Assembly (NCBI GenBank): GCA_030148335.1
Contig: JASBTQ010000022.1
Span: 1 to 64,000 of the forward strand
Direction: 5' to 3'
Source: Allomuricauda sp.
GTDB taxonomy: Bacteria > Bacteroidota > Bacteroidia > Flavobacteriales > Flavobacteriaceae
Length of the DNA: 64,000 nt
Shown here piece after piece: positions 7,982 through 39,671 of the stretch. Made by a program: the position numbers and the translations under genes. The number at the start of each line of letters is the position of its first letter. The first letter of the stretch is position 1. A model generated the notes under the pieces. It was not told where the DNA came from. It searched no databases and worked only from the letters and a program-made list of their open reading frames with translations.

Positions 7982-8494
7982 TCAATTGCCATTGTCCTCA
8001 TTTGAAACAGTAAATACGATTTCTCCATACATGAAATAATCACCGTCCCTTATGGGTTTATCATATTTTAGAATACTCCAAGAGTCATAATTATAAGGGC
8101 TGTTTATCTCGTTTCCCAAATAACTGGGAGGTCCAATCCATTCTCTTTTCAGTTCATCCCCCACAAACAGTTCAAACTTGCCATAATTATTAATATGGTC
8201 ATAATAGATGCTCACATTTCTTTCAATGATCAATTTTGAATTGCCCTCTTTTACGCCATCGGAAGAAACGGAAGATGTAAAGTTGGCAGCCATTTTGGAG
8301 TTTGCTTTTAATCTAAGTGTGTCTGATTTTTCATCTGTCGAATCCAAGCTATGGTAAACAATAGTTACATCAACATTGGTGGCGTTTTCAAATACTCTTT
8401 GATAGAAATCTATATAAAAGGATTCTTCAGGGTCACAGCTCAGCAAACTAAGGCCAATCAGGATAACTGTAAAATGCATTATCAACTTTTTCAT
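7982..8494 (-). CDS. Hypothetical lipoprotein
   Basis: MKKLIMHFTVILIGLSLLSCDPEE signal/lipobox; overlaps the 3' end of the upstream gene by 47 bp. Confidence 0.65.
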   Translation of the reverse strand: MKKLIMHFTVILIGLSLLSCDPEESFYIDFYQRVFENATNVDVTIVYHSLDSTDEKSDTLRLKANSKMAANFTSSVSSDGVKEGNSKLIIERNVSIYYDHINNYGKFELFVGDELKREWIGPPSYLGNEINSPYNYDSWSILKYDKPIRDGDYFMYGEIVFTVSNEDNGN

Positions 8495-10151
8495 CGTATG
8501 TTGTTTTAGTTTTTAATTCGGCGATTAAATCGGTAAAAGTATCCGTGGTGGATTTTAAACACTCAAATATCTCTTTGGTCGAAACATCAGGTAGATTATC
8601 CACATCTTCTAAAAACCCAGGATTGTACCAATCTTCATCCTTATTAAAATAATTGTTGCTACTTGGAAACTCTTTGTCTGTCAAAACCGCACTAAAATAA
8701 TTACCCCACATTTCGCCTATGCCACAATTGCCTGAATTTGTCCCATGTCCATTCCCATAGGCTCCATAGGTTATAATATAGTTGATATATTTGATCCAAT
8801 ATCCATTGCCCACCTTTTTAAAATGGGAGGCATGGGCCAGTTCATGGAAAGTAGTGGAGAATACCCCATCTGTGCCCTTGCTGCTCCCTGCTCTAATGAG
8901 AATGTCTGGGAGTATGTACTTGTACATTATCCATAATAAATTTGCCGCTACTGTTATGCCATTTGCCTTGGCAAAAAAAGTAGAGACCTTTGAACGGCTG
9001 GTAAATCCGGCATATCCCCATACCCGTCTTAGCATGGGCGCCGATGAATAACCTGTGCCTCCTAGCGCCACTATTCTTAAATTGTTGTGCGGCTGGTCAA
9101 CGCCCATCTGAGAACAATAATTGAAGTACTTTACCGTGGCATTGTTCACAGTGGCCCACCGCCAGCCCACCGAATTGGTGTAAAAATCAAAATTATGGCC
9201 ATATCTACTTCTTTTACCCGCCCTGTACCTTGCCGATGAAATACTTACCAACGAAGGCCAAATTTTAAACCCCTTGGTGTTTTTGAACACCACTGTATAA
9301 TGCACATCCCTTCGGTAACCACGATTTACTTTGTATTGGCCTACAGAGTTTGTCCATCCCTTGGCCCATTTGAACCAGCGTCTGGTTTTTACTTTCACAC
9401 CGACCACGGGGTCAAGTTTGTTTGTTACCGTATTGTGTACCTTCACATACCCCTCGGGTGTTTTTTTGCTTTTGTCCTCTTGCGGACCCAAAGCTTCTTC
9501 AAAATTGCCTGTCAACCGGAGTGCCTCATCCTCCAGATCGAGCAAAAATTGTTTGGAGATTCCCGTCCTGCCTGCAATGGCCGTGGTTTTGGAACCATTT
9601 TCTTCTTCCTCCCCCTCAACATTTGAAGGCTCGATCAGAAACAAGTCTTCCACTTTTTCAAAAGTGATCCCATCTGGAAATTCATAATCCTTGACCACAG
9701 AAGCATAAAGCCATTGACCTTCCTGAATCTGGGTATCCCCATCCACATAATAATCACCTTCCTGTTCAATTTCAACATCCAATGGAATCTCTGATAAATT
9801 GAGTGAATCTGCCAACAGCAATTGCTTTTGTTCGTCATTTTCCACCCAAAACTTCACATAATAGTCCGTTGTGGTAATCTCAGAAGAGTCCTTAAGGATT
9901 TGGGAATCATAACCCTTTTGACCCTTTTCCAACTTCTTAATGAGATTGGCGTAAGCCCTCCTCATATTCACCACTGAATAGGGATTCTCCAACTTTTTGC
10001 CAAGCTTGATCTGTCTTAATGTGTCGGGTTCTTCCATTGCCAATGGAGGAGGGGAATGATTGATTTGCGGTTCCTCCTTTTCGCAGGAAAAAATAACACA
10101 GGCCACAATTACTGTTCTTGCCATAGCCCAATACATTTTTCTTTGTTTCAT
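8448..10151 (-). CDS. Lipoprotein with HExxH metallopeptidase-like motif
   Basis: Lipobox IFSCEKEE; TTFHELAHASHF (HExxH) with downstream GIGEMWGNYFSAVL (possible third ligand Glu). Confidence 0.65.
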   Translation of the reverse strand: MKQRKMYWAMARTVIVACVIFSCEKEEPQINHSPPPLAMEEPDTLRQIKLGKKLENPYSVVNMRRAYANLIKKLEKGQKGYDSQILKDSSEITTTDYYVKFWVENDEQKQLLLADSLNLSEIPLDVEIEQEGDYYVDGDTQIQEGQWLYASVVKDYEFPDGITFEKVEDLFLIEPSNVEGEEEENGSKTTAIAGRTGISKQFLLDLEDEALRLTGNFEEALGPQEDKSKKTPEGYVKVHNTVTNKLDPVVGVKVKTRRWFKWAKGWTNSVGQYKVNRGYRRDVHYTVVFKNTKGFKIWPSLVSISSARYRAGKRSRYGHNFDFYTNSVGWRWATVNNATVKYFNYCSQMGVDQPHNNLRIVALGGTGYSSAPMLRRVWGYAGFTSRSKVSTFFAKANGITVAANLLWIMYKYILPDILIRAGSSKGTDGVFSTTFHELAHASHFKKVGNGYWIKYINYIITYGAYGNGHGTNSGNCGIGEMWGNYFSAVLTDKEFPSSNNYFNKDEDWYNPGFLEDVDNLPDVSTKEIFECLKSTTDTFTDLIAELKTKTTYDEKVDNAFYSYPDWP

Positions 10152-10233
10152 AATAAAAAGATTCTAAGTGTTCTTGGGGTATGCTGCTATACCTGAATAA
10201 GGTAATAAAACACAATGTCAGATCGGGGGCCAA

Positions 10234-10285
10234 TTGACGGATGACCCTTTTGGTTTGGTGGATGTGCATTTTCAATTGACGGATG
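10234..10285. promoter_or_regulatory. Three direct repeats TTGACGGATG/TTGGTGGATG/TTGACGGATG, 21-bp period
   Basis: Copies begin at 10234, 10255 and 10276, upstream of the minus-strand gene starting at 10151. Confidence 0.75.
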
Positions 10286-35095: not shown

Positions 35096-37534
35096 TTAAA
35101 ACACATAACCGACTCCCAAAATTAAATTGGTTCCCGGTGCCACTATCCCCGACGAATAGGTCCGATAACGCTGGTTGGTCATGTTTTCCAAGGCCATGGT
35201 GGCTTTGAGGGCATTGGAAATTTGGTATTGCGACCTGAAATTCAGGGTGTACCACGATGGGGAATAGGGGTTTCCGTTGCGGTCACTGGCATACATGTAA
35301 TCTTTGCTTTGTTCCGAGAGCGTGAGCTCATCGTTGCTGATTTCCCCATTGTAGTTCAGAACTACATCCGCCTTTAGCTTTTGGTTCTGCCAGATCAGGT
35401 GCACGTCACCAAACGTCGGGGCGGCATGTCGGGCAGGCGTGTCCGTGCCGCTATCATCTTCTTCCGTACCTTCCGTGAGGGTGAGGTTGGACAACAGCGA
35501 CCAATGTTCATCAAAGTAGGCTTCCAACCCGAATTCAAACCCATACACATAGGCCTTGGCCGCATTTTGGATGGCCTGCACATTGCTCAGTTCGCCATTA
35601 TATTCGATTTCGCGCTGCCCATTGAAGGTAAAGTCCCTTCGGACCAAAGCGTCCACTAAATAGGTGTAATAGGCAGCCCCTTTGAACACCACCACATCAT
35701 CAAAATTCTTCTTGATGCCCAGTTCCCCATTATAGGCATATTCGGGTTCCAAATCTGGGTTGGGCACCACCACAGAGCCGGGTTCCGAGTCGAAAATCTT
35801 CCCGATATCATCAATGTTGGGGGCCCTAAACCCTGTGGAACCGTTCAAGGTGACCTGAAAATCCGACCATGGGAACCAACTGACCCCTAAACTGCCCGTG
35901 AGTGCCCCGGTCACAATATCGGCCTCTTCAAACGGAAAAGGATAAAAGGTGTCTTCAAACTGGGCATCCACCCAAACTTGGCTGTACCGTATTCCTGACA
36001 GCACGGTGAGGTTGGGCTTCACTTGATATTCTCCATTGATGTACCCGGCAAAAGTCTGCCATGTGGCCCCGTCGGGATATCGGGAGGCGGTCAATTCCCG
36101 CTCATCCGTCTCAATATCTTTCACACTTCCTTCCGAATGGACCTTGTTGAAAATATACTCCGCACCATAAAAGAGGTTCAGGTTGCCCATCTTTTTGTTC
36201 TCAAAGTCCAAGTTCACGGAAATGGCGTCCACCTTTTCCCTTGTGGAATACAGCTCCACATCTCCAAATCCACGATCGTGGCGGCTTTCTTCAAAAAATT
36301 GATAGGCCGTGGTCAACTTGACGCCGTCATAAAACTTGTTCTTCCCCTTTTGGGTGACCTGAAAATTCCCCATGAACCATTTCTGGGGACCGTAGTACCA
36401 TTCTGCAGAGCGAAGCCCCAAACCATCACCGGTGGGGCGGATCAACCTATCATATCTGGAATAATCGGAAGTTTCCGAATAGTACAGTCCTAAATCATAG
36501 TTCCACGAAGTGTTGGGTCTGTAGGCGAACTTCTGTAGAAAATTGAACTGATTGTATCCGGAGGTCACTTGCTTTCTGGGATCTTCATTTTCCACCAAAA
36601 TATCAATGCCGTTCTGCCGCACCACATAATTGTTCCGCAAATAGGAATCGGGGCCATGCTTTCCCATCTTCAGATCATCAAAATCATTGTAGGTGAAACT
36701 GGTGTAGGAGGCCCATTTGCGTTGCCCAAAGTTAACATCCACATGGGCCGTGTTCTCATTGTTCGCCGTGGCGTAACGATAGTTTGCATGACCCGAAAAG
36801 GCAAGACTGTCTGTATATGAAAAACGGGGTTTCTCCGTGTAGAAGTTCATGACCCCCCCAATGGCATCACTACCGTAGATCACAGAGCCCGGTCCGAAGG
36901 TGATCTCGGTCTTTGCTATGGTAAACGGGTCAATGGATATCACATTTTGAAGGTTGCCACCCCTAAAAATGGCATTGTTCATCCGAACGCCATCCACGGA
37001 AAGCAAGAGTCTGTTGGTGGCAAAACCGCGTATCATTGGACTTCCCCCACCCAATTGACTTTTCTGCACAAATACCTTCCCACTGTTCTGCAAAAGATCG
37101 GCAGAGGTTTGGGGCGAGGTAAAGTAAATGTCCCGCGCGCCGAGGGTCTCCACTTTTTGGGGAATCCGTTTTTTCTGCTGCTCCCACTTGGAAACGGACA
37201 TGACCACTTCCTGTAGTTCTTCAGTCTTTGTCTGGAGGTACACCCGATGGCCCCTTCTACCGATCTGCGATTTGGTGGCCGTGTAGGTCTCATAACCGAT
37301 ATGCCGAAAGGTGATTTTCTCATCTTCCCCAAAAATGCCCACATCGGTATTCCCGCGGGAGTCCGTAATAGTTGTTTTGCTCTGGTCCTTGTTGAACAGG
37401 GCCACATTATCCACAGGTATTCCGCTATCGGCATCCCAAACGGTTATCTGTTGGGCATAAAACGTGAAGGAGAAAAGTAAAAAAATGAGGGCCGAGGCTA
37501 ATTTTGGGTTCTGCATTTCAATGGAATACTTCAT
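35096..37534 (-). CDS. TonB-dependent receptor (carboxypeptidase-like N-terminus)
   Basis: KVFVQKSQLGGGSPMIRGFATNRLLLSVDGVRMNNAIFRGGNLQNVISIDPFTI plug; C-terminal NLILGVGYVF. Confidence 0.9.
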   Translation of the reverse strand: MKYSIEMQNPKLASALIFLLFSFTFYAQQITVWDADSGIPVDNVALFNKDQSKTTITDSRGNTDVGIFGEDEKITFRHIGYETYTATKSQIGRRGHRVYLQTKTEELQEVVMSVSKWEQQKKRIPQKVETLGARDIYFTSPQTSADLLQNSGKVFVQKSQLGGGSPMIRGFATNRLLLSVDGVRMNNAIFRGGNLQNVISIDPFTIAKTEITFGPGSVIYGSDAIGGVMNFYTEKPRFSYTDSLAFSGHANYRYATANNENTAHVDVNFGQRKWASYTSFTYNDFDDLKMGKHGPDSYLRNNYVVRQNGIDILVENEDPRKQVTSGYNQFNFLQKFAYRPNTSWNYDLGLYYSETSDYSRYDRLIRPTGDGLGLRSAEWYYGPQKWFMGNFQVTQKGKNKFYDGVKLTTAYQFFEESRHDRGFGDVELYSTREKVDAISVNLDFENKKMGNLNLFYGAEYIFNKVHSEGSVKDIETDERELTASRYPDGATWQTFAGYINGEYQVKPNLTVLSGIRYSQVWVDAQFEDTFYPFPFEEADIVTGALTGSLGVSWFPWSDFQVTLNGSTGFRAPNIDDIGKIFDSEPGSVVVPNPDLEPEYAYNGELGIKKNFDDVVVFKGAAYYTYLVDALVRRDFTFNGQREIEYNGELSNVQAIQNAAKAYVYGFEFGLEAYFDEHWSLLSNLTLTEGTEEDDSGTDTPARHAAPTFGDVHLIWQNQKLKADVVLNYNGEISNDELTLSEQSKDYMYASDRNGNPYSPSWYTLNFRSQYQISNALKATMALENMTNQRYRTYSSGIVAPGTNLILGVGYVF

Positions 37535-38237
37535 TTAATACGGCAAGCGACTTTGGTTCCCTGAATCCGTGCACATGCAACCGGAAATACAGGATCACCG
37601 TTTTCAAAAGTTCCCGCCTTTGGAATTTAGTTAGTTGTACAGTCTGAAGTGCATCAAAATCCATGCCCAAAAATTTCTTAAAACTGATTAGGTTTTCACT
37701 CTGTATCAATGGGTTAAGTGATGGCGTTTTACAAAATTCCCCTTCTTGAAGGTCAAAGAAAGGTGCTTCATCCAAGGAAGTGTCCGGGTAGAAGCCCAGA
37801 TATTTGGTAAGGTTCAATAAAAAGAGGATATGGAAATTGGGTGAAAGGGCATGTTCATCCAACCATTGAAGGGCATGCTCCAAATAGTTGAAGAGTCCTT
37901 GGTCCTGCTCTTGTTCATGGATACTGCTGCCCAACATTTCCGCGAGAAAAAGCACCACGCTATTCTTTAGGATGTCCGTGTGGACGGTGCAGTAAGGTGT
38001 TGCCACCTTCACTTCCCGGATGCCTTCCAAAGTGCCTTTGTTCCTGTGGCTGGCCACAATCTCCAATTGCATCAAGGGAAGAAAATAGGCAGGTTTCAGT
38101 TTCCCTTTTCCCGAAGAAAACACCCCTTTCAATAAATAGGATTTCAAACCATCGGATTCGGTAAATGCCCTGACGATGAGACTGGTGTCTCCATATTTCA
38201 ATGAGGAAAGAACGATTGCCTTTGTGGTGATTTGCAT
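37518..38237 (-). CDS. recO: DNA repair protein RecO
   Basis: MQITTKAIVLSSLKYGDTSLIVRAFTESDGLKSYLLKGV; start reassigned to 38237. Confidence 0.9.
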   Translation of the reverse strand: MQITTKAIVLSSLKYGDTSLIVRAFTESDGLKSYLLKGVFSSGKGKLKPAYFLPLMQLEIVASHRNKGTLEGIREVKVATPYCTVHTDILKNSVVLFLAEMLGSSIHEQEQDQGLFNYLEHALQWLDEHALSPNFHILFLLNLTKYLGFYPDTSLDEAPFFDLQEGEFCKTPSLNPLIQSENLISFKKFLGMDFDALQTVQLTKFQRRELLKTVILYFRLHVHGFREPKSLAVLNEVFH

Positions 38238-38327
38238 GGGCCAAAAAAAAGAAGCAGTTACCAGAAGTGTAAAAATAAGCACTCCTTCCGGTAACTGCCA
38301 ATCAAAAACTGTTTTCGGTCAAGCGGC

Positions 38328-39671
38328 CTAAATGACCCCTTGGGCCAACATGGCATCCGCAACTTTTACGAAACCGGCAATATTGGCTCCTTTTACATAG
38401 TTGCAGTACCCATTGTCCTCTTTTCCGTAGGCAATACAGGCATCGTGGATATCGGACATGATCCCTTTCAATCGCTGGTCCACCTCTTCCCGTGTCCAAC
38501 TGATCCTAAGTGAGTTTTGGGACATTTCCAGACCTGAAGTGGCCACACCCCCTGCATTGGAAGCCTTGCCTGGTGCAAACAAGATCTTGGCATCGTGGAA
38601 TGCATGGATGGCTTCCGGCGTGGAAGGCATATTCGCTCCTTCGGCCACGGCGATACAGCCATTTTTGATCAACACGGCGGCATCGTCGCCGTTCAGCTCG
38701 TTCTGGGTGGCACAGGGCAGTGCAATGTCGCACGCCACTTTCCATGGGGTTTTCCCTTTGTGGAACTCTGCCGAAGGGTACTTGGCAACGTAATCCGAGA
38801 TCCTACCCCTGCGGTTGTTCTTCAAGTCCATCACATAGGCGAGCTTTTCCTCGTTTATTCCGTCCTTGTCATAGATGTAACCGCCCGAATCGGAAAGGGT
38901 CAATACTTTTCCTCCCAATTGAAGGACCTTTTCGGCAGCGTATTGGGCCACGTTCCCAGATCCTGATATCACTACTTTCTTGCCTTCAAAAGATTTTCCT
39001 TGGGTCTTGAGCATGCTATCGGCAAAGTAAACGGTCCCGTATCCGGTCGCTTCGGGACGGATCAGCGATCCTCCCCATGAAAGTCCCTTACCGGTCAACA
39101 CGCCCGTGAACTCGTTGCGTATTTTTTTGTACATCCCAAAAAGGAATCCTATCTCGCGGGCACCCACCCCGATATCTCCAGCGGGAACGTCGGTGTTCGG
39201 GCCAATGTGTCGGCAAAGCTCTGTCATGAAGGCATGGCAAAAGCGCATCACCTCATCGTCCGACTTGCCTTTTGGATCAAAATCGGAACCCCCCTTTCCT
39301 CCGCCCATGGGCAAAGTGGTAAGGCTGTTTTTGAATACTTGTTCAAATGCCAAGAATTTCAGTACGCTGGCATTTACTGTGGGGTGAAACCGGAGTCCTC
39401 CTTTGTAGGGGCCTATGGCCGAGTTCATTTGAATGCGGTATCCGCGGTTCACATGGATTTCCCCTTCGTCATCCACCCATGCCACGCGGAACGAAATCAA
39501 TCGTTCCGGCTCGACCATTCTCAGGAGGATGTTCTTTCCATTATAGATGTCGTGCTTGGCAATATAGGGTATTACCGTTTCCGCCACCTCTTGTACCGCT
39601 TGTATGAATTCAGGTTCATGGCCGTTCCTGGCCTTCACCTCGTCCATAAATGCTTTTATTTTTGCTTCCAT
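38328..39671 (-). CDS. gdhA: NADP-specific glutamate dehydrogenase
   Basis: GPYKGGLRFHPTVNASVLKFLAFEQVFKNSLTTLPMGGGKGGSDFDPKGKSD. Confidence 0.98.
   Translation of the reverse strand: MEAKIKAFMDEVKARNGHEPEFIQAVQEVAETVIPYIAKHDIYNGKNILLRMVEPERLISFRVAWVDDEGEIHVNRGYRIQMNSAIGPYKGGLRFHPTVNASVLKFLAFEQVFKNSLTTLPMGGGKGGSDFDPKGKSDDEVMRFCHAFMTELCRHIGPNTDVPAGDIGVGAREIGFLFGMYKKIRNEFTGVLTGKGLSWGGSLIRPEATGYGTVYFADSMLKTQGKSFEGKKVVISGSGNVAQYAAEKVLQLGGKVLTLSDSGGYIYDKDGINEEKLAYVMDLKNNRRGRISDYVAKYPSAEFHKGKTPWKVACDIALPCATQNELNGDDAAVLIKNGCIAVAEGANMPSTPEAIHAFHDAKILFAPGKASNAGGVATSGLEMSQNSLRISWTREEVDQRLKGIMSDIHDACIAYGKEDNGYCNYVKGANIAGFVKVADAMLAQGVI

Follow-up and report, generated by a model that had tools for sequence, protein, structure and literature searches.

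To our knowledge, operators are known for few of the many LytTR regulators of the Bacteroidota. The half-sites of AraC/XylS-type regulators are, like the arrays described here, direct repeats about 21 bp apart, and they abut the -35 region. LytTR sites consist of repeats of 9-11 nt with spacers of 11-13 nt (PMC4847170); for AgrA, the centre of the repeats lies near -60 (PMC4227749), and CoxC and RcoM1 provide examples of triple repeats (PMC11347149). In the best-supported reading of the sequence, the arrays that we describe in Allomuricauda would work like a LytTR-type activator operator.

Two arrays were found in the window, which is the whole 64,000-nucleotide stretch analysed (Table 1). Over 10234-10285 the minus strand reads CATCCGTCAATTGAAAATGCA-CATCCACCAAACCAAAAGGGT-CATCCGTCAA, the units being exactly 21 bp apart. 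Three direct repeats at exact 21-bp steps on this strand had been reported in a first-pass annotation, and they were borne out both by the sequence and by TRF, which independently detected 10231-10285 (period 21) and a second array, not listed in that annotation, at 63059-63113; the GTTTTAT placed 22 nt past the repeats and the open reading frame start placed at 10151 were also found as described. A profile of 33 nt, derived from 122 arrays that include the two of the window, gave scores of 43.3 and 50.1 bits at the window arrays, whereas the highest score among 120 simulated strands of 64 kb was 8.0; the window arrays are therefore not chance occurrences. An Rfam search of the window returned no match to an RNA element, and no E. 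coli-type promoter or terminator was found near the array.

Table 1. Units, putative promoter boxes and downstream genes of the two window arrays.
Feature	Position	Strand	Basis
First array, distal unit CATCCGTCAA	10276..10285	minus	sequence
First array, middle unit CATCCACCAA (2 mismatches; 21 bp downstream of distal unit)	10255..10264	minus	sequence
First array, promoter-proximal unit CATCCGTCAA(TT)	10234..10243	minus	sequence; profile score 43.3 bits
First array, putative -7 box TACCTTAT (retains TA..TT of TAnnTTTG; 29 nt past last unit)	10197..10204	minus	sequence; family-wide peak at 29-30 nt
First downstream gene, 567-aa lipoprotein-like protein with HExxH, family not known	8448..10151	minus	
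Second gene, 170 aa, overlapping first gene	7982..8494	minus	
Third gene, at most 191 aa	7468..8043	minus	
Second array, distal unit CATCCGTCAA	63103..63112	minus	
Second array, middle unit CATCCCTCAA	63082..63091	minus	
Second array, proximal unit CATCCATCAA(TT)	63061..63070	minus	unit pair scores 50.1 bits
Second array, putative -7 box TAGCTTCA (30 nt past last unit)	63023..63030	minus	
69-aa secreted-looking peptide gene, second array upstream	62740..62949	minus	
GLPGLI family protein, downstream of 69-aa peptide gene	61938..62675	minus	

The window targets are thus the gene of an HExxH lipoprotein, with which the second and third genes probably share a transcript, and the genes of a 69-aa secreted-looking peptide and a GLPGLI protein. 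The lipoprotein had been called metallopeptidase-like; the sole basis of this name is the HExxH motif (TTFHELAHASHF), which is indeed present, and the protein has no Pfam, NCBIfam or PDB match. Loss of the repeats in close relatives that conserve the operon had been named as an outcome against the proposal, and was not observed: a lipoprotein homologue in Allomuricauda sp. pb2, diverged to 24% identity with HExxH kept, has an array upstream too. The same holds for a 76%-identical relative of the 69-aa peptide (L112). Beyond the 69-aa peptide gene, the GLPGLI gene is followed by that of a large outer-membrane-type protein.

The genome-wide enrichment of 21-bp-spaced copies that the first-pass annotation had anticipated was found in the genome of origin (3.44 Mb, 84% complete), where a loose two-unit pattern gave 39 matches and its reversed control none; about two thirds of these pair matches are convincing, and some of the weaker ones, which carry two mismatches, are likely due to chance. 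A stricter pattern was present in 50 of the 120 genomes searched, all inside the genus (Flagellimonas/Allomuricauda), and never in reversed form; arrays were found in none of the 47 genomes from outside it. When GTDB species genomes were scanned for exact matches, 77 loci emerged, almost all of them named Flagellimonas, Allomuricauda or Muricauda; the scan also brought up two Saprospiraceae metagenome assemblies (L239, L273), outside the genus, with the same array ahead of homologous secreted proteins. A viral origin of the arrays was rejected, as the pattern occurred in none of the viral contigs. Micro-repeats of CAACCATCAACC (L223, L233), although picked up by the loose scan, were left out of the family. 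Elsewhere in the genome of origin (C8:48096; L025 around 1501), a run of TTTAGGG heptamers resembling plant-type telomeres was noted; it could reflect either a simple repeat confined to this locus or an error of assembly.

The geometry of the family is constant, with 10-nt units, an 11-nt spacer and a strict 21-bp period throughout. The 144 distinct arrays include 99 with two units and 44 with three. The unit consensus is CATCC(G/A)TCAA-YYCAAA, followed by five looser bases; in the last, promoter-proximal unit, conservation is limited to CATCCGTCAATT, that is 12 bp compared with 16 bp in the upstream unit. The targets are mainly surface lipoproteins, the largest groups being those that carry IPT/TIG, Kelch or cadherin-like repeats and those with collagen repeats; transcription factors also belong to the target set. 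At two loci (L178, L179), near-identical IPT/TIG lipoprotein genes are clustered, each with one array, and short repetitive intergenic stretches lie in between (ORFs like SLRLRSATELPTSDFRL).

The arrays stand at a fixed distance from a promoter box. TAnnTTTG, with at most one mismatch, peaks 29-30 nt past the last unit (63 of 144 arrays, compared with 0-4 at other offsets), no clear signal for a -33 element was seen across the 144 distinct arrays, and the last unit lies a median of 69 nt from the start codon. In Flavobacterium psychrophilum the -7 box covers -12 to -5 (PMC9723704); because the flavobacterial box has this position, the last two units fall at about -52..-43 and -73..-64 (near -47 and -68), and the centre of the pair at about -58. 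This places the operator immediately ahead of the -35 region in the target promoters, as is the case for LytTR sites. Such a layout would be that of an activator-dependent promoter, and a protein that activates genes very probably binds at the array. The recurrence of the arrays across genome and genus, together with the fixed -7 box distance, upholds the earlier proposal that a regulator's direct-repeat operator precedes the lipoprotein gene, and the arrays are almost certainly regulatory operators.

Judged from sequence, the protein that binds them is probably of the LytTR type. Unit length and spacing fall within the range of LytTR operators (9-11 nt units, 10-13 nt apart), and the core TCCGTCAAT agrees with the AgrA consensus WMMGTTNRK (PMC8826819) at 8/9 positions, a match with an estimated chance probability of about 0.27 over some 42 registers and strands, or about 0.06 if the conserved block alone is considered; LytTR sites share no common consensus. 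The arrays are also linked to a LytTR gene. On another contig of the same genome (C31, about 36056-38748) lies a 7TMR-DISM/His_kinase gene with a LytTR gene behind it, and an array is present upstream of this kinase-LytTR operon in 36 of the 40 fetched genomes that keep this LytTR, array-poor ones included; an array was counted if it scored higher than the random maximum and lay within about 4.5 kb, and the exact position was checked individually in part.

Near other LytTR genes, too, perfect 10-bp repeats with a -7 box behind them were encountered, at the promoter distance seen for the arrays: there were three matches, all of period 21 and made of three different words, and 15 other periods gave none at the same loci. 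Agreement with the LytTR consensus in these three repeats is 7/9 at best. One of them, TTTCACAACA-N11-TTTCACAACA, lies between the LytTR gene L085 and the next gene (L486 near 4155; also L315, L316 and L496-L501); it is perfectly conserved in 9/9 genomes, with a -7 box 28 nt on in the genome of origin, and is probably the operator of this regulator. Another, TTCATATATT-N11-TTCATATATT (L487, minus strand, near 168), lies in the promoter of an operon encoding a lipoprotein, a 113-aa protein, a kinase and a LytTR protein, and is likely an autoregulatory operator with a different word. These observations, small in number, suggest that 21-bp repeats are how LytTR operators look in this genus.

The likeliest individual binder is the LytTR protein of the C31 kinase operon, and that it is this one is about an even call. 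This operon is missing, or present as remnants only, in at least four genomes that retain 5-14 arrays (G065, G072, G035, G069), and array counts did not differ significantly between genomes with and without it (p=0.15). Arrays and the linked LytTR gene thus do not strictly co-occur across genomes, which speaks against the C31 LytTR as sole binder, not against LytTR binders generally. For selection on arrays after LytTR loss, G065 and G072 were compared over three pairs, of which one was informative. Deletion of the kinase/LytTR operon has occurred repeatedly in the genus (L402, L447, L449, L451, L454, L455), often with the C-terminal part of LytTR remaining. Two LytTR genes that seemed to accompany arrays were rejected as candidates: the one near the L225 array, which has 98% identity with L080 of the genome of origin, lies there by chance, at a distance of 3.5 kb, and the array drives a different gene; the apparently array-driven one in G072 (L322) is a deletion scar in which an unrelated secreted protein is fused to the end of the LytTR gene. 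The first-pass annotation had assigned the array to a LytTR-type regulator; geometry, the 8/9 consensus agreement, the operon linkage and the 21-bp repeats of other LytTR loci speak indirectly for this assignment, whereas the absence of the linked gene from some array-rich genomes and the competing AraC-type gene speak against it.

The arrays are dispersed and lineage-specific, as would be expected if they were non-regulatory, i.e. a dispersed repeat, a mobile promoter cassette or chance, but such an origin is extremely improbable given the fixed -7 box distance, an orientation toward the start codon in nearly all cases and their retention upstream of diverged genes. The binder might instead be an AraC-type (HTH_18) regulator, which we consider unlikely. 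The candidate is a membrane-anchored HTH_18 protein of 203-273 aa, which would activate its own gene together with the regulon, related HTH_18 proteins substituting for it in other genomes. Of 30 orthologue loci examined, about 25 do have an array immediately ahead of this gene, and four others have what looks on visual inspection like a degenerate one; presence of the gene is correlated with the number of arrays (p=0.005, uncorrected for phylogeny), and arrays precede an unrelated second HTH_18 clade (TPR-HTH_18; C46:39544 in the genome of origin) in several genomes. The 16-bp conserved block of the upstream unit would also suffice for a two-box half-site; the promoter-proximal unit, however, conserves 12 bp and not 16, the second box, CAAA, being conserved in upstream units only. 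Moreover, the short membrane HTH_18 gene is absent from seven array-rich, near-complete genomes (G052, G064, G034, G051, G056, G031 and G069), so that this regulator is not found wherever arrays are. The DNA-binding domains of the two array-preceded clades are about 30% identical, and they therefore look more like targets. The perfect-repeat scan of HTH_18 loci returned a single match, which lay within coding sequence; 21-bp repeats with a different word were not seen at the promoters there. The TPR-HTH_18 protein, considered separately as an autoregulated master regulator, was rejected: its clade occurs in about one third of the genomes and is missing from array-rich G068, G018, G044 and G065.

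No candidate examined is present in every array-rich genome, which would fit binding by a different, universally conserved regulator, either a core LytTR protein or a member of another family, with the LytTR operon and the AraC-type genes as its most conserved targets. Seven core LytTR genes are indeed common to three array-rich genomes (G000, G065, G072), but none of them is accompanied by a matching array and one, L085, has the different, conserved repeat described above; this explanation is improbable. It is possible, though doubtful, that the operator outlived its original regulator and that another LytTR or a membrane-bound AraC-type protein took over the sites, since the anchoring kinase/LytTR operon was deleted several times, leaving LytTR fragments, and the arrays persist. 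If this were the case, it would be a natural example of one regulator replacing another on an existing set of operators. As no single candidate fits every genome, the binder remains at the level of a candidate, probably LytTR-type and with little likelihood AraC-type.

With a LytTR-type binder, activation could proceed as follows. The 21-bp period would align the two or three CATCCGTCAA copies along the same helical face, separated by a partly A-rich spacer (YYCAAA), and a LytTR-domain response regulator, dimeric or oligomeric, would bind them cooperatively. Occupying about -43 to -73, it would contact RNA polymerase; the promoter has a sigma-A -7 box and no recognisable -33 element. A genus-specific regulon would thereby be switched on, comprising surface lipoproteins, small secreted proteins and the regulator's own kinase-regulator operon.

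In the open-licence papers searched, we found no earlier description of the operator word, of the regulon or of a rule of one repeat per LytTR. If this reading is right, it provides the binding word and the targets of one LytTR, together with its promoter geometry, in which 10-bp repeats at a 21-bp period stand 28-30 nt ahead of the -7 box. It would also supply a simple rule for finding other LytTR operators, several of them apparently beside their own LytTR genes. It points to a common switch for surface lipoproteins in a widespread marine genus.

Compared with known systems, the arrays share with AraC/XylS-type operators direct repeats about 21 bp apart beside the -35 region, but their promoter-proximal unit lacks a second conserved box, and HTH_18 loci show no promoter-placed repeats of such layout outside the array family. 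LytTR-type operators (AgrA, YpdB, HdrR/BrsR, RcoM/CoxC) likewise consist of direct repeats with a period of about 21 bp that lie at the -35 region or upstream of it; the array core agrees with the AgrA consensus at 8/9 positions, and RcoM1 and CoxC also have triple repeats. The arrays differ from these operators in that the word CATCCGTCAA is new, that there are often three units rather than two and that the binder is here a candidate; compared with the LRS examples of Streptococcus mutans, their last unit is somewhat nearer the promoter. The LRS-like operons of Bacteroides, in the same phylum, resemble the arrays in having a LytTR gene and an 11-nt spacer (TCCGGTATTCA-11bp-ACCGGAAATCA in B. 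thetaiotaomicron), and the B. thetaiotaomicron repeat also has a TAnnTTTG-type promoter downstream and similar letters (TCCG...TCA). It differs in its 22-bp period and in standing 11 bp plus a -33 element ahead of the -7 box. Finally, the Bacteroides repeats are predicted to serve the autoregulation of one operon, whereas the arrays belong to a dispersed regulon.
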